Origin: a virus
DNA: 50,092 nt
Virus record (IMG/VR): IMGVR_UViG_3300008267_013330
Location: 1-50,092 of that record
Strand: one strand, 5' to 3'
Below, one piece after another: positions 3,210 through 46,875 of this stretch. The notes beneath the pieces are model-generated. The model had not been told where the DNA came from and ran no database searches. It saw nothing but the letters and a program-made list of their open reading frames with translations. Numbering within the stretch: the first letter of the stretch is position 1; the number at the start of each line of letters is the position of its first letter. The position numbers were made by a program, and so were the translations under genes.

Positions 3210-3617
3210 ATGGAATTTTTAAACTCACACCCGATTAAAAAATCAGACTTAGGGTTTCACGGAAATCTATTCGGTGGTAAATTACTTGCATGGATTGACG
3301 CTTCGGCTGCTGGGTATGCGATGCAACTATGTGACACACCAAGGATGGTTACCGTTTCTATCGATAAATGTAACTTTGAAAAACCAGCAAGAGAAAGTCA
3401 GTTATTAAAAATATACGGATACCCTTCTGTTGTCGGTAATAGTTCAGTTACATTATATATGGAAGCAAGAGCCCATAATGTTTATACAGGAAAACAACAT
3501 ATAGTTTTAAGAACAAATATTAAATTTGTACATATTGATGAAGAAGGTAACCCTATACCAATAGGGGAAAAAGGAAGAAAAAGAATTCAAACATTAATTG
3601 ATGCAAATCCAAAATAA
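3210..3617 (+). CDS. Acyl-CoA thioesterase, hotdog fold (YciA/BACH-like)
   Basis: The 135-residue length fits a single hotdog domain. Key landmarks are HGNLFGGKLLAWID at 17-30, with the family's Asp at 30, then MVTVSIDKCNFEKPA at about 46-60 and a late beta-strand VLRTNIKFVHID. This family hydrolyses acyl-CoA thioesters to free acid and CoA and works as a hexamer. It sits among unrelated small phage genes, so it is a probable auxiliary metabolic gene that could alter host lipid or CoA pools. Confidence 0.85.
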   Translation: MEFLNSHPIKKSDLGFHGNLFGGKLLAWIDASAAGYAMQLCDTPRMVTVSIDKCNFEKPARESQLLKIYGYPSVVGNSSVTLYMEARAHNVYTGKQHIVLRTNIKFVHIDEEGNPIPIGEKGRKRIQTLIDANPK

Positions 3618-7155: not shown

Positions 7156-7227
7156 GCTCCCATCGTCTATCGGTTAGGACATCAGGTTTTCATCCTGAAA
7201 AGCGGGGTTCGATTCCCCGTGGGAGTA
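7156..7227 (+). tRNA. tRNA-Glu (anticodon UUC)
   Basis: A complete cloverleaf of 72 nt. The acceptor GCTCCCA pairs with TGGGAGT (one G-T). The anticodon stem is TCAGG/CCTGA around loop TTTTCAT, and the T-arm is CGGGG-TTCGATT-CCCCG. The CCA end is not encoded. Confidence 0.93.
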
Positions 7228-7487
7228 CGGAAATTAGTTCTTTGAAATATTGAAAAACATTGTAGTTGTAAGAAACGGTAAACTCGTAAAGTGTATCAAC
7301 CTGTTAAATCAAGATAGTGAAACGAGAGTGTGATTTAACTACTAAACTACAGTAAAAATTGTGTTGTTCCCTTGAGAAAGGAATACCAGTTATGAATATA
7401 TTGAAGTATGAGGAATGATAAGGAGGACTTCTCTTAAACATTCATATACTGGTTATCACAGCACAGAGGACTTCTCATCCTCAAATT
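7228..7487 (+). ncRNA. Structured RNA, 5' part of the island
   Basis: This 260-nt stretch has no credible gene but clear RNA folds. TGTAGTT (7261-7267) pairs with AACTACA (7345-7351). GTTAAATCA (7303-7311) pairs with TGATTTAAC (7331-7339), and its loop holds ACGAG (7322-7326) that can pair with CTCGT (7283-7287), a pseudoknot. A second domain pairs ACCAGT/TATGAAT (7385-7397) with ATTCATA/ACTGGT (7440-7453). GAGGACTTCTC-like sequence occurs twice near 7423 and 7467. It begins right after a boxA-like site. Confidence 0.6.
7237..7249 (+). promoter_or_regulatory. boxA-like antitermination motif
   Basis: GTTCTTTGAAATA occurs here, again at 10864, and as GTTCTTTGATTTA at 17287, each time directly before a structured RNA. 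It resembles the NusB/S10 boxA of rRNA leaders. Confidence 0.5.
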
Positions 7488-7561
7488 GCACCCGTAGCTT
7501 AGCTGAATAGAGCAACTCACTTCTAATGAGTAGGTCCCAGGTTTGAATCCTGGCGGGTGTA
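7488..7561 (+). tRNA. tRNA-Arg (anticodon UCU)
   Basis: A complete 74-nt cloverleaf. The acceptor GCACCCG pairs with CGGGTGT, the anticodon stem ACTCA/TGAGT surrounds CTTCTAA, and the T-arm is CCAGG-TTTGAAT-CCTGG. It reads AGA, a codon heavily used in this AT-rich sequence. CCA is not encoded. Confidence 0.93.
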
Positions 7562-7778
7562 CTGGGAGTGCATACAGTAGAGTTCAGTTTGAGAGCCGAG
7601 TGTACCAAGCACTTAAAAGATGGGTACAAGGAATCAAATCGTTTATTCAGTTTAAGGCGAGAAAAACTGACGTTTGGGAGAGATGGTTGTCGGACAACCT
7701 ACACCCGTGATGTTAGTGGGCTTGATCACCCCTTTCACGTAAATCGTGACGAAACTTACCCAGGGAGTAGTCACACAT

Positions 7779-7870
7779 AGTCAGGTTGGATACAAGGTCG
7801 GTTCGAGTCCGATGGCAGACATGGATGTCAGGTAGCCCCTTGGAGAGAGGTTCGATTCCTCTCCTGACTA
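7779..7870 (+). other. tRNA-like element (possible tRNA-Ser CGA without a normal D-arm)
   Basis: AGTCAGG pairs with CCTGACT, followed by discriminator A. A perfect T-arm AGAGG-TTCGATT-CCTCT lies exactly where a tRNA would have it. An inner hairpin GTCGG-TTCGAGT-CCGAT would read CGA as an anticodon, and GACAT-GG-ATGTC could be a long variable arm. Only 11 nt separate the acceptor strand from that hairpin, too few for a D-arm. It may be a degenerate tRNA or a tRNA mimic inside the larger RNA. Confidence 0.4.
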
Positions 7871-8086
7871 CAAAAACACATAAACTTCAGTTCCCACACA
7901 GCGGTGAGGCGGGCTAAGCTAGATACAATTTCTCGGGGCTGGGAGTAGAAGGCTGAAGAATGTGTTTTAAATAGTCAGGTGGCGGATGGGTAGACGCAGA
8001 GGTGAGGGGTATAAAACAAAGGGCAGGGCACAAGTCCGTTTACGGAACTGAACATTGGGAGAGGTCGAGGAACTTCCATTACCCCG

Positions 8087-11114: not shown

Positions 11115-11187
11115 CGCGGGATGTGGAAGTTGGTTATCCGCCTAGTCTCATAAGCTAGGATCGCAGGTTCGAGTCCTGCTCCCGCAA
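11115..11187 (+). tRNA. tRNA-Met (CAU), initiator-like
   Basis: A complete 73-nt cloverleaf. The anticodon loop is CTCATAA, the stem CTAGT/GCTAG, and the T-arm GCAGG-TTCGAGT-CCTGC. The first acceptor pair is C1 with A72, the mismatch that marks bacterial initiator tRNA. The anticodon stem lacks the usual three G-C pairs, so initiator identity is likely but not certain. Confidence 0.85.
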
Positions 11188-11203
11188 CTAAAAAATTTAT
11201 ATT

Positions 11204-12770: not shown

Positions 12771-15134
12771 TTATGCTAAGGTTATACTAATTGTACCACC
12801 ATTAGATATTGTTAATTTATATCTTGTACCATCAGGACTTTTCATTATAACACCCTCACCAACCTCAGTTAATTCTACTTTAGGCATATATACGGTGTCA
12901 TCTGTTGAACCAGTTATTCCTTGACCACCTAATACCACACTCCTTATACCAGTTACTGTTGAACTATATGAATGTATAAACGAACTATCACCACTCGCTA
13001 TTGATTGGTAACCACCTGCGTGAGAAGCGTACCCTGATGCTGTTGTTTGAAAACCTTCAGAATGGGATTGATAACCGGCAGCTACTGTGGCATAACCTTC
13101 AGCGTGAGAATAAGGTCCTAAAGCAGTTGTTGCAACACCTTCAGAATGTGAATATGTTCCTTCTGCTGTTGTACCGTTACCTTCAGCGTGAGAAACATCA
13201 CCAAAAGCTATTGAACCCTCACCTTCCGCGTGTGATCTACCACCAATAGCACTTGTTGATAAACCTTCAGCATGAGAAGTATAACCACTAGCCAAAGTGT
13301 TAACACCCTCAGAATGGGAACCATCACCAACCGCACTTGTATTACCACCTTCAGCGTGTGATTCTAAACCACTAGCTGATGTTTGGAAACCTTCAGCGTG
13401 TGAGTAATTACCAATAGCTAAAGTACCTTCACCTTCAGCATGTGACTCTAGACCACTAGCTATCGTACTAGCACCTTCAGCGTGTGAATAGTTTCCTGAA
13501 GATGTTGTTAAATAACCTTCAGCGTGAGAACTAACACCCGACGCGATTGTTAACCAACCTTCAGCGTGAGAACCATTTCCAAACGCAGTTGTTGAATTAC
13601 CTTCAGCGTGAGAAAAATAACCTGATGCTGTTGTAAAATTACCTTCAGTGTGGGAATAACTACCTGAAGCTGTTGTTTCTCTACCTTCAGCGTGTGAAGA
13701 TATACCTAAAGCTTTACCACCGCCAAAAGAAAACCCAAAGCCATTATTATATCCACCTTCAGCATGTGAACCAACACCTGAAGCAGTTGATTGAAAACCT
13801 TCAGCGTGGGAATAAGTACCTGATGCGGTTGTTTGACCACCTTCAGCGTGAGAATTGGTATTTGATGCTGTCGTTCCACCACCTTCAGCGTGAGAGAATT
13901 GACCTGAAGCTACAGTTAGATTACCTTCAGCGTGAGAAGCGTCACCTGATGCGGTTGTTGCTTCACCTTCAGCATGGGAAGATATACCTAAAGCTTTACC
14001 ACCTTCAATAGTTGTCCCGACTCCATCACTATAACCGCCTTCAGCGTGAGAACCAATTCCTTGTGCCGTAGTTTCAAAACCTTCAGCGTGGGAATAATTA
14101 CCTGAAGCTGTTGTGTTAGCACCCTCAGAATGTGAACCAAGACCTGAAGATGTTGTGTTACCACCTTCAGCGTGAGAAAACTGACCACTAGCTATACTAA
14201 AATTACCCTCAGCATGGGAACCGAAATCACCTAATGCCGTTGTCCAAATACCTTCAGCATGGGAAGATATACCTAAAGCTTTACCGCCATCAAAAGTTGT
14301 CCCAACTCCATCATTATAACCACCTTCAGCGTGAGAACCCACACCTGAAGCAGTTGATTGAAAACCTTCAGCGTGAGAAGCGTATCCTGATGCGGTTGTT
14401 AATCTACCTTCAGCGTGAGAACCCGTACTCGATGCTGTTGTATTACCACCTTCAGCGTGTGACATTTGTCCCGAAGCCACAGTTTGAGAACCTTCGGCGT
14501 GAGAACCAAAATCACCTGACGCTATTGTTCTATCACCTTCAGCGTGAGAAGATATACCTAAAGCTTTACCGCCATCCGCAATTACAATACCATCATTATA
14601 ACCACCTTCAGCGTGAGAACCCACACCTGACGCAGTTGAATTAAAACCTTCAGCGTGAGAAAAATATCCTGATGCGGTTGTTTGAAAACCTTCTTGTAAA
14701 CTATATGTAATATTATTAAAAGTAAAACTAGGACTAGCACCAAAAGATCCACCATCATTGAATTGAATCTCTGTGTTATTTCCTGCTGGTGTTCCACCAC
14801 CTCCACCACCTGTGGCTTCAATTTGTAATGCTGTACCCGCTAAATTTTGTGTTATTATTATCCCAGAACCAGCATTTAAACCCTTTGTTGATAAAGTTGG
14901 CCCTGTTCCGTCACTAACTAAAGAATAACTACCTCCGGCAGATGTTAAAGTTGTTGTACCACCCCCACCAGCTTGCCAAGTAGTATTACCATTAGCATCA
15001 GAAGTTAAGACATAACCATTTGTCGCTCCGTTTGTAATTTGGAGGTTGTCCACAACAAATTTAGTTGAACCACTCACAGTTATTGGTCCGTTTGTTGTAT
15101 ATGGTGTAATGTAATTTACGTTAATTTGACTCAT
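12771..15134 (-). CDS. Repetitive tail fibre or adhesin with 37 SHAEG repeats (YadA-head-like)
   Basis: The 787-residue protein starts with a phage-type segment (YITPYTTNGPITVSGS, then NGYVLTSDANGN). The bulk is about 37 units of 14-24 residues with core SH(A/S)EG..TTASG, the left-handed roll repeat of trimeric YadA/Hep_Hag heads. A larger unit containing GGYNDG...GGKALGISSHAEG recurs four times. The end (VYMPKVELTEVGEGVIMKSPDGTRY) is typical of phage fibres; no S74 chaperone domain is seen. It likely forms a trimeric receptor-binding fibre. It lies on the minus strand with a heptamer-repeat leader. Confidence 0.8.
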   Translation of the reverse strand: MSQINVNYITPYTTNGPITVSGSTKFVVDNLQITNGATNGYVLTSDANGNTTWQAGGGGTTTLTSAGGSYSLVSDGTGPTLSTKGLNAGSGIIITQNLAGTALQIEATGGGGGGTPAGNNTEIQFNDGGSFGASPSFTFNNITYSLQEGFQTTASGYFSHAEGFNSTASGVGSHAEGGYNDGIVIADGGKALGISSHAEGDRTIASGDFGSHAEGSQTVASGQMSHAEGGNTTASSTGSHAEGRLTTASGYASHAEGFQSTASGVGSHAEGGYNDGVGTTFDGGKALGISSHAEGIWTTALGDFGSHAEGNFSIASGQFSHAEGGNTTSSGLGSHSEGANTTASGNYSHAEGFETTAQGIGSHAEGGYSDGVGTTIEGGKALGISSHAEGEATTASGDASHAEGNLTVASGQFSHAEGGGTTASNTNSHAEGGQTTASGTYSHAEGFQSTASGVGSHAEGGYNNGFGFSFGGGKALGISSHAEGRETTASGSYSHTEGNFTTASGYFSHAEGNSTTAFGNGSHAEGWLTIASGVSSHAEGYLTTSSGNYSHAEGASTIASGLESHAEGEGTLAIGNYSHAEGFQTSASGLESHAEGGNTSAVGDGSHSEGVNTLASGYTSHAEGLSTSAIGGRSHAEGEGSIAFGDVSHAEGNGTTAEGTYSHSEGVATTALGPYSHAEGYATVAAGYQSHSEGFQTTASGYASHAGGYQSIASGDSSFIHSYSSTVTGIRSVVLGGQGITGSTDDTVYMPKVELTEVGEGVIMKSPDGTRYKLTISNGGTISITLA
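13010..14690. repeat. Imperfect tandem repeats encoding SHAEG units
   Basis: On the plus strand ACCTTCAGCGTGAGAA and close variants recur about every 42-48 nt, with longer spacers every fourth to eighth unit. It encodes the fibre's repeat region. Such arrays can change copy number by recombination. Confidence 0.9.
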
Positions 15135-17300: not shown

Positions 17301-17700
17301 GGGGGTGTTTTTGGATTTGACTTGTCGTGATTGTGACGAGTGTAAGCATGTCGTGAAATGATGCTATCACGTTAATACACGTATTAAAATTTTAAATGGC
17401 GACGTATTCGCAAACGCAACTGTAGGTCACTTTGTGACTGAAGGAGCGACAGTAGCTGCCTAATCAGATTAGGTGTTACTATGGGGTCGGTGGACATATA
17501 ACCTAGCAACAGAAGTCTTTACAAAGGTGTGGTTTCTACCCGAAAAGGAACAAGTGGAGGATTAGTTCTCAGTAAACCGAACCACTATAAAATAAGGGAA
17601 TTGTGAAATTTCGGATTGTTAGCTTAAACAATGACCTAAACATGTAGAAGACCGTTAAAATACGGTAAGGACAGCGGTTCGAGCCCGCTCACCTCCACCA
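17301..17700 (+). ncRNA. ssrA: tmRNA (ssrA)
   Basis: The 5' end GGGGGTGTTTTTGGATTTGAC and the 3' end GGTTCGAGCCCGCTCACCTCCACCA-type arm form the alanyl tRNA-like domain. GGGGGTG pairs with CACCTCC including the G-U identity pair, and CCA is encoded. The tag frame starts at GGC 17398 after TTTTAAAT and ends at TAA 17461 inside hairpin CCTAAT/ATTAGG. It encodes GDVFANATVGH-FVTEGATVAA, 21 residues ending in a degron-like VAA. tmRNA rescues stalled ribosomes and marks the product for proteolysis. Confidence 0.95.
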
Positions 17701-35457: not shown

Positions 35458-36117
35458 ATGTTTGGTAAAGTTTTTTTTAATGTTGACACACAACAAGATT
35501 TTTTTAATAGGGATAGTGTAGATATTCCAAACGGTGAATCCATATTAGATAATTTGGCTTTAATAAGCCAATACGTATCAAAAAATAATTTAAAAACTGT
35601 CCATAGTATTAGATGGTTTAAAGAGGATTCAGAATTTTTTTCTGAAATGCCTGATTACAGAGAAAAATTACCAAAACATTGTGTTAAAGATACAAAGGGT
35701 GCTAGATTCATAAAAGAAACAGCTCCAGTTAATTATTTTTTAATAAATTGGGAGGGTGGGAATTTAGTTTTTCCAGAGATACACAGAAATTCAAACATTG
35801 TTGTAACTAAAAAAACAAAAGATTTTTTTATGGGTAACAGTTTTTCTGAAGCTTTAATAAATAATTTAGGTATACCAATAATGCAAAGACCTGTTTTTTA
35901 TTTATACGGTGTTGATGTTGGTGACACAGCTCTTTCTCTTCTTAGAAGAGGTTATGTTGTTTATGTAGTTTCTGACGCTAACATTAATATTAATGGACAA
36001 GTATTCAAAAAAGAAGATATTATATCAGCAGCATTTAACCCAGAATTAAACACACAAGTAAAAGAGGTTTTAGATTTAAATTTTATAACTACTAAAGAAT
36101 TGATAAATGGAATTTGA
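35458..36117 (+). CDS. Isochorismatase/nicotinamidase-like protein lacking the catalytic Cys
   Basis: The 219-residue protein has the cysteine-hydrolase fold landmarks. FFNVDTQQDFF at 6-16 includes the Asp of the triad, HCVKDTKGARF lies at 74-84, KKTKDFF at 118-124 contains the Lys, and YGVDVGDTALSLLRRGY lies at 150-166. In active nicotinamidases the loop before T-A-L carries Cys; here the matching position appears to be Gly155. The enzyme may be inactive or use another residue. It overlaps the next gene by 11 nt. Confidence 0.7.
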   Translation: MFGKVFFNVDTQQDFFNRDSVDIPNGESILDNLALISQYVSKNNLKTVHSIRWFKEDSEFFSEMPDYREKLPKHCVKDTKGARFIKETAPVNYFLINWEGGNLVFPEIHRNSNIVVTKKTKDFFMGNSFSEALINNLGIPIMQRPVFYLYGVDVGDTALSLLRRGYVVYVVSDANININGQVFKKEDIISAAFNPELNTQVKEVLDLNFITTKELINGI

Positions 36118-36707: not shown

Positions 36708-37301
36708 ATGGAATTAAATTTATTTGAAAGTAAACATAAAATAACAAAAGAAGATAGAGAAAAAATATTAAAACAAAAATCGTTAGTTATTTGGTTAACT
36801 GGTTTATCTGGTTCTGGTAAATCAACAATTGCCAATGAATTGGCAATTAAATTACAAAAAGAAAATAAATTAGCATATATTCTTGATGGGGATAATATTA
36901 GAATGGGCCTTAATAAAGATTTAGGTTTTTCTGATGATGATAGAAAAGAAAACATTAGAAGAATTGCTGAAGTTGCTAAATTATTATCAGATATCGGTGT
37001 TATTGTAATAACCGCTTTTATTTCACCTTTTAGGGAAGAAAGAAATAATGCCAAAAACATAATTGGTGAAGATGATTTTATTGAGGTTTATATTGATGCC
37101 TCTTTATCAGTTTGTGAGTCAAGAGACCCAAAAGGTTTATATAAAAAAGCGAGATTAGGTCAAATACCTATGTTCACTGGAATAGATTCACCATATGAAG
37201 AACCGTTAAACCCAACTCTTGAAGTTAAAAGTGATGAAATGACCATAGAAGAATCTACTAATTTTATTTATGATTATTTAATAACAAAAAAAGTTTTTTA
37301 A
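36708..37301 (+). CDS. cysC: Adenylylsulfate (APS) kinase
   Basis: The 197-residue protein contains the full CysC signature. P-loop TGLSGSGKST is at 31-40, LDGDNIRMGLNKDLGFS at 59-75, ENIRRIAEVAKLL at 81-93, AFISPFR at 103-109, RDPKGLYKKAR at 139-149 and FTGIDSPYEEP at 156-166. The enzyme phosphorylates APS with ATP to make PAPS in sulfate activation. No ATP sulfurylase is seen in the window, so host APS is likely used. PAPS could feed cysteine synthesis or sulfation. Confidence 0.95.
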   Translation: MELNLFESKHKITKEDREKILKQKSLVIWLTGLSGSGKSTIANELAIKLQKENKLAYILDGDNIRMGLNKDLGFSDDDRKENIRRIAEVAKLLSDIGVIVITAFISPFREERNNAKNIIGEDDFIEVYIDASLSVCESRDPKGLYKKARLGQIPMFTGIDSPYEEPLNPTLEVKSDEMTIEESTNFIYDYLITKKVF

Positions 37302-42143: not shown

Positions 42144-42495
42144 TAAAGAGCCTTTGTGGGCAAAAAAAGATAAAGAAAAATGGTTACAACTACAATTTAA
42201 TTTAAATTTTTTAAAAGAACAAAAAGTAAAACACGGTGAAATTCATTGTGAGTATTGTGGAAAAAAAGATTTAAAAATATATGATTGGTGTGAGCCGTTA
42301 AATAGTAAAGATGTTGCGACTGTTGATCATTTTTACCCTAAATCAAAATACGGTGAATTAAAAAAAGATGAAAAAAATTTTGTAATATCTTGTTATAATT
42401 GTAACAATAAAAAAAGTGATAACCTATGGGATTTTAAAGAAATAAAATATCCAATAGATGAAAATAAAATAAAAGAACTTAAAACAATAGTTTAA
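42136..42495 (+). CDS. HNH endonuclease
   Basis: From ATG 42136 (119 residues; ATG 42118 also in frame) the protein has CEYCGKKD (Cys38, Cys41), ATVDHFYPKSKYG (Asp64-His65), NFVISCYNCNNKKSD (Asn81, Cys86, Cys89). This is a compact zinc-bound HNH. It shares no obvious identity with the one at 9014. The C-terminus overlaps the thioredoxin start by 1 nt. Confidence 0.85.
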   Translation: MCNKEPLWAKKDKEKWLQLQFNLNFLKEQKVKHGEIHCEYCGKKDLKIYDWCEPLNSKDVATVDHFYPKSKYGELKKDEKNFVISCYNCNNKKSDNLWDFKEIKYPIDENKIKELKTIV

Positions 42496-42794
42496 TGGGA
42501 GATAATTTTAACGATATAATAAACTCAGAAAAACCTACTTTAGTGGATTTTTATGCAACATGGTGTGGTCCGTGTAAAATGATGAACCCTATCATAGAAC
42601 AAACAAAAAATGAGTTAGGTAATTCTACAACTATTTTAAAAATTGATGTTGATAATAATAAAGATGTTGCCATTAAATATGGTATAAGGGGTGTACCTAC
42701 TTTAATTCTTTTTAAAAATGGTGAACCTATTTGGAGACAATCTGGTGTTATGCCATCAAATACTTTAGTTGAAAAAATAAAAGAGCTCTTATAA
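42495..42794 (+). CDS. Thioredoxin
   Basis: The 99-residue protein has WCGPCK (Cys24, Cys27) after VDFYAT, a cis-Pro GVPTLILF near residue 73, and the GEPIWRQSG turn. It is a normal-length thioredoxin that reduces disulfides in the cytosol. In T7 the host thioredoxin is a polymerase processivity factor, and large phages often encode their own for ribonucleotide reductase; neither partner is in the window. Confidence 0.95.
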   Translation: MGDNFNDIINSEKPTLVDFYATWCGPCKMMNPIIEQTKNELGNSTTILKIDVDNNKDVAIKYGIRGVPTLILFKNGEPIWRQSGVMPSNTLVEKIKELL

Positions 42795-44420: not shown

Positions 44421-44430
44421 TATTTATTAT
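44421..44430 (+). promoter_or_regulatory. TATTTATTAT motif
   Basis: A partial member of the motif set, 12 nt upstream of the ATG at 44443. Confidence 0.3.
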
Positions 44431-44442
44431 ATATAAAAGTTT

Positions 44443-45720
44443 ATGAAATATTTTTTAACTTTACTATTGGTTATTACATCATTTATTGGTTTTAGTCAAC
44501 CAATAAATGACAATTGTTCTAATGCTACTGTAATTACACTACCTAATCCTGTGGCATGTCCAAACGGAATTGGGTCAACGGTTAATGTTAGTGGTACCAA
44601 TATAGGTGCAACCGCACCAACCCCTTACACATATCTTTTGGGATGTTCAACGGGTGGAAATCAACCAGCACCAGCACTTGATGTGTGGTATAGATTTGTA
44701 GCCACAGGAACAAGAGTTACTATCAACATAACAGGGGGTTCACCTGCATTACCAAGTCCCGCAATTTCTCTGTGGAATGGTACTAACTGTAATAACTTAT
44801 CAGGGACAGGGTGTGATAATAACGGAACAACGGCGGGAGCAAATTCAGCAACTTTTGAACCATTAGCTATAGGTCAAACATACTATATACAAATTAGTGG
44901 TATGAACTCCACAACCACAGGTAATTTTAACATGTCTATAAACGCTTCAAATGATTGTGCTGATTGTAATACCTCATCTAATTTAACAGTCACACCACCA
45001 CCAACAAACGGAGCATATTTACCAGGAACTCAAGTAACATTTTGTTATACAATTACAAATTATAATCAAGTAAACGCCAATTGGATACACGGTATTATAC
45101 CCACATTTGGTAATGGTTGGAATTTAACGACATTACAATCTAACGGAACGCCACCAATACCTTCAGGAGGTTATGGTTGGTATTGGGCTAATGGCCCTTT
45201 AGGTCAAGGATGGTGGGTAGATGTTGATCCAGTTGGGCCAACGGGTCCTGATGGTATTTTTAATAATAATTATGGTTATTCACCTGTTAATGGTACAGGT
45301 ACTTGGACTTGGTGCTGGAGAATAACAACAAAGTCAAATTGTTCTTTAGGTACTAATCTTAGTTTATCAATTAACACAACCTCTGATGGTGAGACAGGTA
45401 GTTGGACATCTCCAGCTTGTTTAGATGATCCTGTTTACCAATTTTCAGCTTTACTTAATTGTTGCACAACAAATGCAACATCTGTTAACCCAACTTGTTT
45501 TGGTTATTCTAATGGTACTACGACTGCCAACCCTAGTGGCGTTTCACCTTATCAATATACTTGGAGTACCTCCCCCGTTCAAACAACGCAAACCGCAACT
45601 AATTTACCTGCAGGCACTTATACAGTTACAGTGACGGATGCCTCAGGTTGTGTTTCTAACGCCACAGTAACATTAACAAATCCCCCTCAAATAGTAGTGG
45701 GGCCAATAAACCATAATTAA
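44443..45720 (+). CDS. Secreted adhesin-like protein with SprB repeat
   Basis: The 425-residue protein has a signal peptide (about 1-19, FSQ) followed by PINDNCSNATVITLP, a domain opening typical of Bacteroidota surface proteins, then a beta-rich PPC-like domain with DVWYRFVATG. The C-terminal 75 residues are an SprB repeat (NPTCFGYSNGTTTANPSG..PYQYTWST..NLPAGTYTVTVTDASGC). It ends GPINHN, close to the SPIQHN end of the next product. SprB-type proteins are exported by T9SS and act in gliding adhesion. Rich in Thr, Asn, Gly and Cys. Confidence 0.8.
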   Translation: MKYFLTLLLVITSFIGFSQPINDNCSNATVITLPNPVACPNGIGSTVNVSGTNIGATAPTPYTYLLGCSTGGNQPAPALDVWYRFVATGTRVTINITGGSPALPSPAISLWNGTNCNNLSGTGCDNNGTTAGANSATFEPLAIGQTYYIQISGMNSTTTGNFNMSINASNDCADCNTSSNLTVTPPPTNGAYLPGTQVTFCYTITNYNQVNANWIHGIIPTFGNGWNLTTLQSNGTPPIPSGGYGWYWANGPLGQGWWVDVDPVGPTGPDGIFNNNYGYSPVNGTGTWTWCWRITTKSNCSLGTNLSLSINTTSDGETGSWTSPACLDDPVYQFSALLNCCTTNATSVNPTCFGYSNGTTTANPSGVSPYQYTWSTSPVQTTQTATNLPAGTYTVTVTDASGCVSNATVTLTNPPQIVVGPINHN

Positions 45721-45726
45721 ACTATT

Positions 45727-46308
45727 ATGAAAAAATTATTATTTATTTTAATGATGATGATTTCGGGGATTTCATTATCACAGTTATCAACAACAAATCC
45801 AGATACGGTTTGTTATCAATCAACAGCACTGTCTACGTATACTGTACCATCTGTTGGTTCGGGAACTTATACTTGGACTGTTACATCACCCGGTGTTATT
45901 ACCGCAGGTCAAGGAACAAACTCAATTTCTGTAAACTGGTCAGCAGCATCACCTGGATTAATCACAAATGGTGTATCTGTAACCTATTCTTCACCAGCAC
46001 CAGCAAACTGTCCGGCAGCACCTGTAAATTTAAATGTATTAATTTATCAAGTTATCCCAACAATACAAGCATTAGGGCCATTTTGTGAATCTGACCCATG
46101 TGTTACATTAGTTGGTTCACCCGCAGGTGGAACATGGTCAGGTACTGGTGTTTCAGGAAACCAATTTTGCCCTGATAACGTAGCGAATGGTACAAACGCA
46201 ACATCAACCGTAACATATACTGTTGGGTCTGCTGGATGTACGTTTTCAACTTCTGTTGTTGTCCCTGTTTATGGTACACCAACATTATCACCTATCCAAC
46301 ATAACTAA
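45727..46308 (+). CDS. Secreted PKD/Ig-like protein
   Basis: The 193-residue protein has a signal peptide (about 1-18, SLS). Two beta-sandwich segments follow: TYTWTVTSPGVITAGQGTNSISVNW (PKD-like) and a C-rich FCESDPCVTLVGSPAGGTWSGTGVSG (typical of Bacteroidota adhesin domains). It ends SPIQHN. It starts 6 nt after the SprB-repeat gene and stops at the next start. It seems to be a central segment of a multi-domain adhesin that here is a separate protein. Confidence 0.7.
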   Translation: MKKLLFILMMMISGISLSQLSTTNPDTVCYQSTALSTYTVPSVGSGTYTWTVTSPGVITAGQGTNSISVNWSAASPGLITNGVSVTYSSPAPANCPAAPVNLNVLIYQVIPTIQALGPFCESDPCVTLVGSPAGGTWSGTGVSGNQFCPDNVANGTNATSTVTYTVGSAGCTFSTSVVVPVYGTPTLSPIQHN

Positions 46309-46875
46309 ATGAGATTAATTATTTTCATATTATTTTTGTTTTTGTCCTTAGAAACTTCGGCACAACAGTCAATAGAACTTTGTGCCGGAGAGTCTAAAAC
46401 TGTTACTTATTTCTCCACATCTACAAGTGAAGGTACAAATACTTGGTATGTTAATAATTCACCATATATTACAAACGAATTAACATATACGTTTAGTAAT
46501 GCTGGAACATATAGTATAGTGGTTAGAAAAGAAAATGGTCCTTGTTATGTTGAAGAAAGTTTACAAGTAATTGTAACTGACTGCCCTGGTGTTATTTATT
46601 GGGTTCCTAATTGTTTTACACCCGACGATAACGAGGCAAATCAAATATATGGACCTGTAATGACAGAAGGGTATGATATAAATGGTTTTGAGTTTTTAGT
46701 TTTTAATAGATGGGGTAATGTTGTATGGGAGTCTCAAGATCCTAACGGAAGGTGGGACGGAACATACAACGGAAAAAAATGTCCTGACGGGGTTTATATT
46801 TGGAAATTACGATTTAATGTTTTTGATGACGACAGTAAAATTTCAGATCACGGACATTTAACTATTATTAGATAA
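46309..46875 (+). CDS. Secreted protein with T9SS type B sorting domain
   Basis: The 188-residue protein has a signal peptide (about 1-18, ETSAQ), one PKD-like domain (TNTWYVNNSP..NAGTYSIVVRKENG) and a complete CHU_C/T9SS type B domain. That domain has WVPNCFTPDDNEANQIYGPV, FLVFNRWGNVVWES, WDGTYNGKKCPDGVYIW and GHLTIIR. This C-terminus directs export across the outer membrane by the host's type IX machinery. It is last of the trio and the only one with a visible sorting signal. Confidence 0.85.
   Translation: MRLIIFILFLFLSLETSAQQSIELCAGESKTVTYFSTSTSEGTNTWYVNNSPYITNELTYTFSNAGTYSIVVRKENGPCYVEESLQVIVTDCPGVIYWVPNCFTPDDNEANQIYGPVMTEGYDINGFEFLVFNRWGNVVWESQDPNGRWDGTYNGKKCPDGVYIWKLRFNVFDDDSKISDHGHLTIIR

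Follow-up and report, generated by a model that had tools for sequence, protein, structure and literature searches.

Introduction

The closest described systems to the locus reported here are the type B adhesins of the T9SS, namely SprB, other type B substrates of F. johnsoniae and GhpA of Aureispira, all of which have a Sec signal, Ig-, SprB- or PKD-like domains and a CHU_C/TIGR04131 sorting domain. A glutamine directly after the Sec signal is what the Q-rule of Bacteroidota predicts (PMC5837995, PMC10653852). Type B cargo needs a cognate PorP/SprF shuttle, and orphan type B substrates with a distant shuttle are known (PMC12618676). Among phages, T9SS cargo has been termed a unique occurrence for Cryophage, where it is of type A (PMC7468147).

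The locus was found in a stretch of viral DNA of 50,092 nucleotides (IMG/VR record IMGVR_UViG_3300008267_013330), here called the window, and consists of three adjacent genes, p1, p2 and p3. It shares the signal and the domain repertoire of the type B adhesins, and differs from them in being divided over three polypeptides, in the C-terminal tails of the form PIxHN, in being encoded by a phage and in having no linked PorP/SprF gene. In chaperone-usher pili and in the type V pili of Bacteroidales, the Ig-like fold of each subunit is completed by a terminus of its neighbour. The likeness of the trio to these pili is a strand completing the next Ig-like fold, predicted here; the donor would be short and C-terminal, the three subunits are unlike one another and have a fixed order, and no kinship in sequence is claimed. 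Decoration proteins of the Hoc type also have Ig-like domains, but they are capsid-bound and cytosolic, whereas the trio carries signals and a sorting domain. Cryophage cargo is, like the trio, phage-encoded, directed to the host T9SS and variable; it differs in that a type A domain is carried by enzymes or by a PA14 protein, and neither split chains nor tail docking has been reported for it (PMC7468147). Phage T9SS cargo itself therefore has a precedent in Cryophage, and the new element is the multi-chain, tail-linked form.

Results

Three adjacent genes for proteins with Sec signals

A sequence-only reading of the window had placed three neighbouring genes for signal-peptide proteins at positions 44443-46875, and ORFs of 425, 193 and 188 aa, all on the plus strand, are present exactly there. 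The first gene, p1 (44443..45720), would encode the head subunit, a protein made up of a Sec signal peptide, an N-terminal region resembling PPC/galactose-binding domains, a second domain, one SprB repeat (PF13573, 45475..45573) and a PINHN tail (45703..45717). The product of p2 (45727..46308; PF19408), the proposed stalk subunit, has a Sec signal peptide and two Ig/PKD-like domains, and ends in a PIQHN tail (46291..46305). The product of p3 (46309..46875; PF13585 and TIGR04131), the proposed anchor subunit, has a Sec signal peptide, an Ig/PKD-like domain and a CHU_C/TIGR04131 type B T9SS sorting domain (46603..46863, E 3.9e-15), which stops at most three residues before the C-terminus. The local GC content at the trio is 0.31–0.39, against a background of about 0.28.

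The third protein scored 49.4 bits against CHU_C in Pfam (cut-off 27) and 40.7 bits against TIGR04131 (cut-off 35), and the second 34.5 bits against PKD_6 in Pfam (cut-off 25), which bears out the type B domain and the PKD-like character that had been assigned to them. The SprB repeat claimed for p1 is recognisable, but at 25.8 bits it stays under the curated cut-off of 28; the repeat of homologous p1 heads from other loci scored 36–37 bits. With its one sub-threshold repeat, p1 does not match the giant chain of many tandem repeats seen in the SprB gliding adhesins, and its close relatives are proteins of 428 aa (locus L084) and 632 aa (locus L157, with a weak GBD_T9SS_assoc match). As judged from the sequence, a hydrophobic Sec-type N-terminus is followed in all three proteins by Gln as the first mature residue, in agreement with the signal peptides read earlier, and this residue (Q19) is invariant in the alignments of p2 and of p3. 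Two weak matches, one in Pfam to Anti-DarT factor A (E 0.077), the other in PHROG to a Hoc-like decoration protein (E 0.0013), were taken as Ig-fold noise.

Distribution and genomic neighbourhood

IMG/VR was searched with p3 and with p2, which gave 113 relatives per query, and the best 80 of these 113 were fetched. Within this set the trio was present in more than 60 distinct loci, on contigs of up to 436 kb, and after de-duplication there were 69 stand-alone p2 genes, 62 of them preceded by p1 and 62 followed by p3; most p2 loci lacking p1 or p3 were at contig ends or had genes cut by the ORF caller. The gene order p1-p2-p3 is conserved, and the stop codon of p2 overlaps the start of p3 as TAATG in 45 of 62 loci, which is consistent with coupled synthesis. 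Annotated phage records contributed relatives chiefly from two huge phages, LR745206 (635 kb) and LR756502 (642 kb). Single genes of this kind have been annotated before, as a PKD-like protein and gliding-motility C-terminal proteins of uncultured Caudovirales phages are among the entries in a library of predicted viral structures; no description of the three-gene set was found.

The heads encoded by p1 are of several types, including a short domain 2, a PPC-like region with domain 2 and SprB, an ALK/LTK glycine-rich domain with SprB, and other SprB or PKD heads.

The claim that the trio is phage-borne is supported by its recurrence. Host DNA mis-joined in assembly, to which the locally raised GC might point and which had been named as a possible refutation, is itself refuted and retains practically no probability: the trio recurs in more than 60 viral loci from many samples, it adjoins tail genes in at least 19 of them, and among 395 Bacteroidota genomes only one p2 homolog with E below 1e-15 was found, a fused protein.

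In at least 19 loci the trio has the tail tube gene on one side and a module for baseplate hub and tape measure on the other. Such a position would suit a virion fibre on tail or capsid, in which the T9SS-like domain serves for attachment and not for export. We hold this to be quite unlikely, since Sec signals with Gln at +1 would take the proteins out of the cytosol, the site of virion assembly, and since in many loci, that of the window included, the trio is not beside tail genes, and its sorting domain exceeds the curated cut-offs.

The conserved C-terminal tail

The near-identical PI(N/Q)HN ends of the first two proteins, already remarked on in the sequence-only reading, are real and go beyond chance. 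Among the best 80 of 113 relatives per search, 67 of the 69 stand-alone p2 proteins end in IxHN and two in IQHD, all 62 p1 proteins end in HN or HD, and the tails covary inside a locus, HN being paired with HN in 60 cases and HD with HD in two. A survey of 2694 ORFs of at least 90 aa in the loci fetched by then disclosed 306 that end in HN, every one of them p1 or p2, although overlapping loci were included and the counts are not independent. In homology-independent scans of the viral collection, PIQHN followed by a stop and TAATG gave 68 matches, 65 of which were p2, and the p1 tail pattern gave 50, of which 45 were p1. The tail persists when the whole p1 head is replaced, and all head types carry the HN or HD end. 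In 395 sampled Bacteroidota genomes, the tail with TAATG matched four times, against four to five times for a reversed control, a chance level that gives no sign of a host-wide signal laid out in this way.

Since the His and Asn codons vary synonymously, selection acts on the protein, and the idea that the tail serves as a signal in the DNA or in translation was rejected for this reason and because Asn-to-Asp replacement occurs. A Lys-Asn isopeptide within p2 was discarded as well, as mature p2 has zero lysines, and so was an intein-like HN end, as the chain just ends at the stop and Pfam gave no intein domain.

The three proteins might also be exported and act independently, PIxHN being a separate signal for recognition, processing or covalent enzymatic ligation. 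This would account for the single residue pattern of both tails, though the proposed acceptor domains differ, and for the covariation of HN and HD per locus, which is to be expected if one recogniser served both tails. It is nevertheless an unlikely explanation: the tails are located exactly where single-chain homologs run into the next domain, the tail with TAATG does not exceed the reversed control in Bacteroidota genomes, and mature p2 offers no lysine for a Lys-Asn isopeptide.

The stop codon was TAA in 131 of 131 p1 and p2 genes counted, compared with TAG or TGA in 16% of all ORFs and in 16 of 62 p3 genes; for p2 the exclusive use of TAA is in part due to the TAATG overlap. A readthrough polyprotein, with suppressed stops and one chain made, could explain this uniformity, as well as the single frame of p1, p2 and p3 in the window. 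It is largely refuted and has hardly any probability, because the whole trio is in frame in only 4 of 62 loci and p1, p2 and p3 each begin with a start codon and signal peptide of their own.

Split and single-chain forms

Single-chain CHU_C proteins of phages differ from the trio in being one ORF without internal signal peptides or HN tails, and those of LR745206 and IMG/VR show its order of head, SprB, PKD and CHU_C. The 732-aa protein of LR745206 matches the p1 SprB repeat, p2 and p3 in that order, and about 12 distinct ORFs from IMG/VR, each of about 740 aa, have the same arrangement in one chain. In LR756502, a 1670-aa protein combines the N-terminal part of p1 with about a dozen SprB repeats and CHU_C, and the order p2-p3 is also that of a 400-aa protein from Bacteroidota, the end of which is, by eye, apparently of type A. 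On alignment (A5), the two forms differ by 'xHN - stop - start - signal peptide', which the split form has in addition at two Ig-domain linkers, each time immediately behind a conserved Ile, and one viral contig (3300008113_011148) holds both forms. At the level of the aligned sequences, the split and fused forms thus correspond, and the architecture of the trio and the conservation of its tails are equally plain.

Structure models

AlphaFold models were obtained for two read-through trios, those of locus L002 and of the window, each folded as one chain. The model alignment was shallow, 12 of its 17–19 rows being fused homologs, so that the modelled docking partly restates their cis arrangement. 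The pLDDT of p2-p3 was mostly 75–93 by block, and that of much of p1 was under 60. In both models the x and the H of both tails are in a beta bridge (numbering from DSSP strings); for the p1 tail, proposed as the donor strand to the first Ig-like domain of p2, the bridge is at N423-H424 in the model of the window's trio, and the p1-p2 contact is weak. The PKD domain 1l0q aligned across the p2 tail and the p3 domain in both models (2.3 Å, 82–83 residues, the range being known from the first and last aligned residues only). As a single PKD domain spans both, the p2 tail is placed in the position of strand A. The models thus give support, not proof, for the p2 tail being strand A of the Ig/PKD-like domain of p3, and the p1 tail probably docks likewise on p2. 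Profile comparison of the first domains of p2 and p3 gave a weak hhalign probability of 12%; the two are not clearly homologous, which counts against one common binding rule.

The nearest solved structures to the p2-p3 models were fragments of the grappling hook protein GhpA of Aureispira, and the p3 profile matched the GhpA C-terminus with E 5.6e-6, so that the kinship with T9SS surface adhesins proposed for the locus is supported in structure and in sequence. The Hoc-type Ig-like decoration protein 3shs was also among the structural matches, and this counts in favour of the virion fibre.

Domain 2 in the p2 profile (window 46042-46275) had a weak match of 31 bits to the repeats of All3314 (PDB 7b5h), part of a cyanobacterial contractile injection system; the match is possibly just to a common Ig-like family.

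Proposed export through the host T9SS

The C-terminal type B domain of p3 and its sequence-judged Sec signal with Gln at +1 are the features of type B cargo. Pfam and NCBIfam gave no type A or B sorting domain for p1 or for p2, both of which end in PIxHN. A search for PorP/SprF (PF11751) was negative in 15 phage records, including those of 642, 635 and 436 kb, many of the 15 being fragments so that the absence is firm for the large ones only; the positive control disclosed 5–6 copies in each of three Bacteroidota genomes. As orphan type B substrates are known, a shuttle gene linked downstream is usual and not strict, and a shuttle of the host is possible. A narrow search of the literature found no precedent for the export of several chains by way of a single T9SS sorting domain.

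Upstream motif and timing

The motif TATTTAT, a putative late promoter element, lies 5' of p1 in the window (44421..44427, plus strand). Taken as a string match, and hence as a motif correlation rather than a mapped promoter, it was found at most 45 nt upstream of the tail tube gene (18/18), the tape measure gene (7/7), the post-trio gene (16/17), the sheath gene (29/44) and distinct p1 genes (26/42), compared with 276 of 1116 other ORFs (25%); 13 of 62 loci had no such match near p1. The host-type motif TAnnTTTG did not occur upstream of the tail genes, and 39 of 42 p1 genes lacked it as well. Judged by these upstream motifs, the trio is probably expressed late. A promoter-like motif common to the trio and the tail genes also speaks for the virion fibre.

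Classical superinfection exclusion genes are early, and the late-type motif therefore makes a function in the virion or at about the time of lysis more likely than early exclusion of superinfection. The earlier suggestion that the proteins act as decoys against superinfection is weakened accordingly, the motif before p1 being that of tail genes and not the host-type TAnnTTTG. A superinfection-excluding decoy concerns the benefit and is compatible with the assembly of a split adhesin; variable heads would fit variable receptors, and Cryophage T9SS cargo has been proposed to serve in inter-strain competition or superinfection control (PMC7468147). With a promoter-like motif that points to late expression, we consider this role improbable.

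Other features of the window and its relatives

In larger phages, the gene directly 5' of p1 encodes a long secreted protein that can bear CUB, GEVED or Ig_7 domains and has a weak type A T9SS tail at its end (L158 4277-6493, L170 4473-6932, L177 4484-6934, L183 1743-6932 and L157 3749-5908), which suggests a larger T9SS cargo cluster. Minimal proteins of 116–126 aa, with a signal peptide and CHU_C, are encoded at L037 7509-7859 (LR756502) and L038 8838-9218 (LR745206). One minimal CHU_C gene of LR745206 adjoins rhomboid-like and HAD-like genes, at the position occupied in LR756502 by the gene for the 1670-aa SprB-repeat protein.

Elsewhere in the window, a minus-strand gene (12771-15134) encodes a protein of 787 aa with YadA head repeats, at 43–44% GC against a background of 28%; it may be a tail fibre or adhesin that was acquired recently. 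A second minus-strand gene (544-1137) encodes a DNA/RNA non-specific endonuclease in which the signal peptide is followed by Q, with TATTTAT 11 nt upstream. The window also holds a phage-borne tmRNA gene, with the tag ANATVGHFVTEGATVAA, and tRNA genes (17301-17700, 7156-7871 and 11115-11188), together with host-like metabolic genes (3210-3617, 35458-36117, 36708-37301 and 42495-42794) for a 4HBT thioesterase, an isochorismatase-like protein, an APS kinase and a thioredoxin; a 4HBT thioesterase gene is near the trio in several relatives too. Many unrelated proteins have a common N-terminal motif, of the MKNLIKKILKES type in the window (sites 17926, 28279, 32167, 32637, 33380, 40315 and 42841) and of the MKHLKKFNES type in LR756502; L036 and L037 have such proteins too. 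Several of the genes concerned have TATTTAT upstream, and the N-terminal motif resembles the capsid-targeting sequences of T4-like internal proteins.

Discussion

The shared tail is best read as a docking strand that joins three parts of one split adhesin. On balance we lean, with modest confidence, towards a split T9SS adhesin in which the three genes encode head, stalk and anchor, linked by the tails and exported on the sorting domain of p3. Each chain would enter the periplasm by its own Sec signal, where PIxHN of p1 and of p2 would become the first beta strand in the first Ig/PKD-like domain of the next subunit, and this strand donation would fix the order p1-p2-p3. As a type B sorting domain is present in p3 only, p1 and p2 would leave in complex with it, and we infer that the three are exported jointly. 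The exit route would be the host T9SS translocon with a PorP/SprF shuttle of the host. Any p1 with its tail intact would be able to dock, which would make the heads exchangeable. As expression is probably late, the infected cell would be coated with the fibre at about the time of lysis, and the benefit to the phage would most plausibly be sticking to neighbours or surfaces, or hiding receptors from the phage's own progeny.

That this amounts to multi-subunit T9SS cargo, in which chains without a sorting domain are exported by means of a near-universal five-residue plug-in tail, with interchangeable heads on a stalk and anchor that are conserved, and with late display, is put forward tentatively, as a possibility to be taken seriously.

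Type B cargo is recurrent in many phages of Bacteroidota, huge ones included, and the trio appears to solve the sharing of one sorting domain among several chains. If strand donation by PIxHN is true, the T9SS can carry assembled complexes, PIxHN is a minimal docking tag for surface display in Bacteroidota, and the swapping of surface-binding heads by phages is explained. The trio is also a testable handle on the late remodelling of the host surface by phages.
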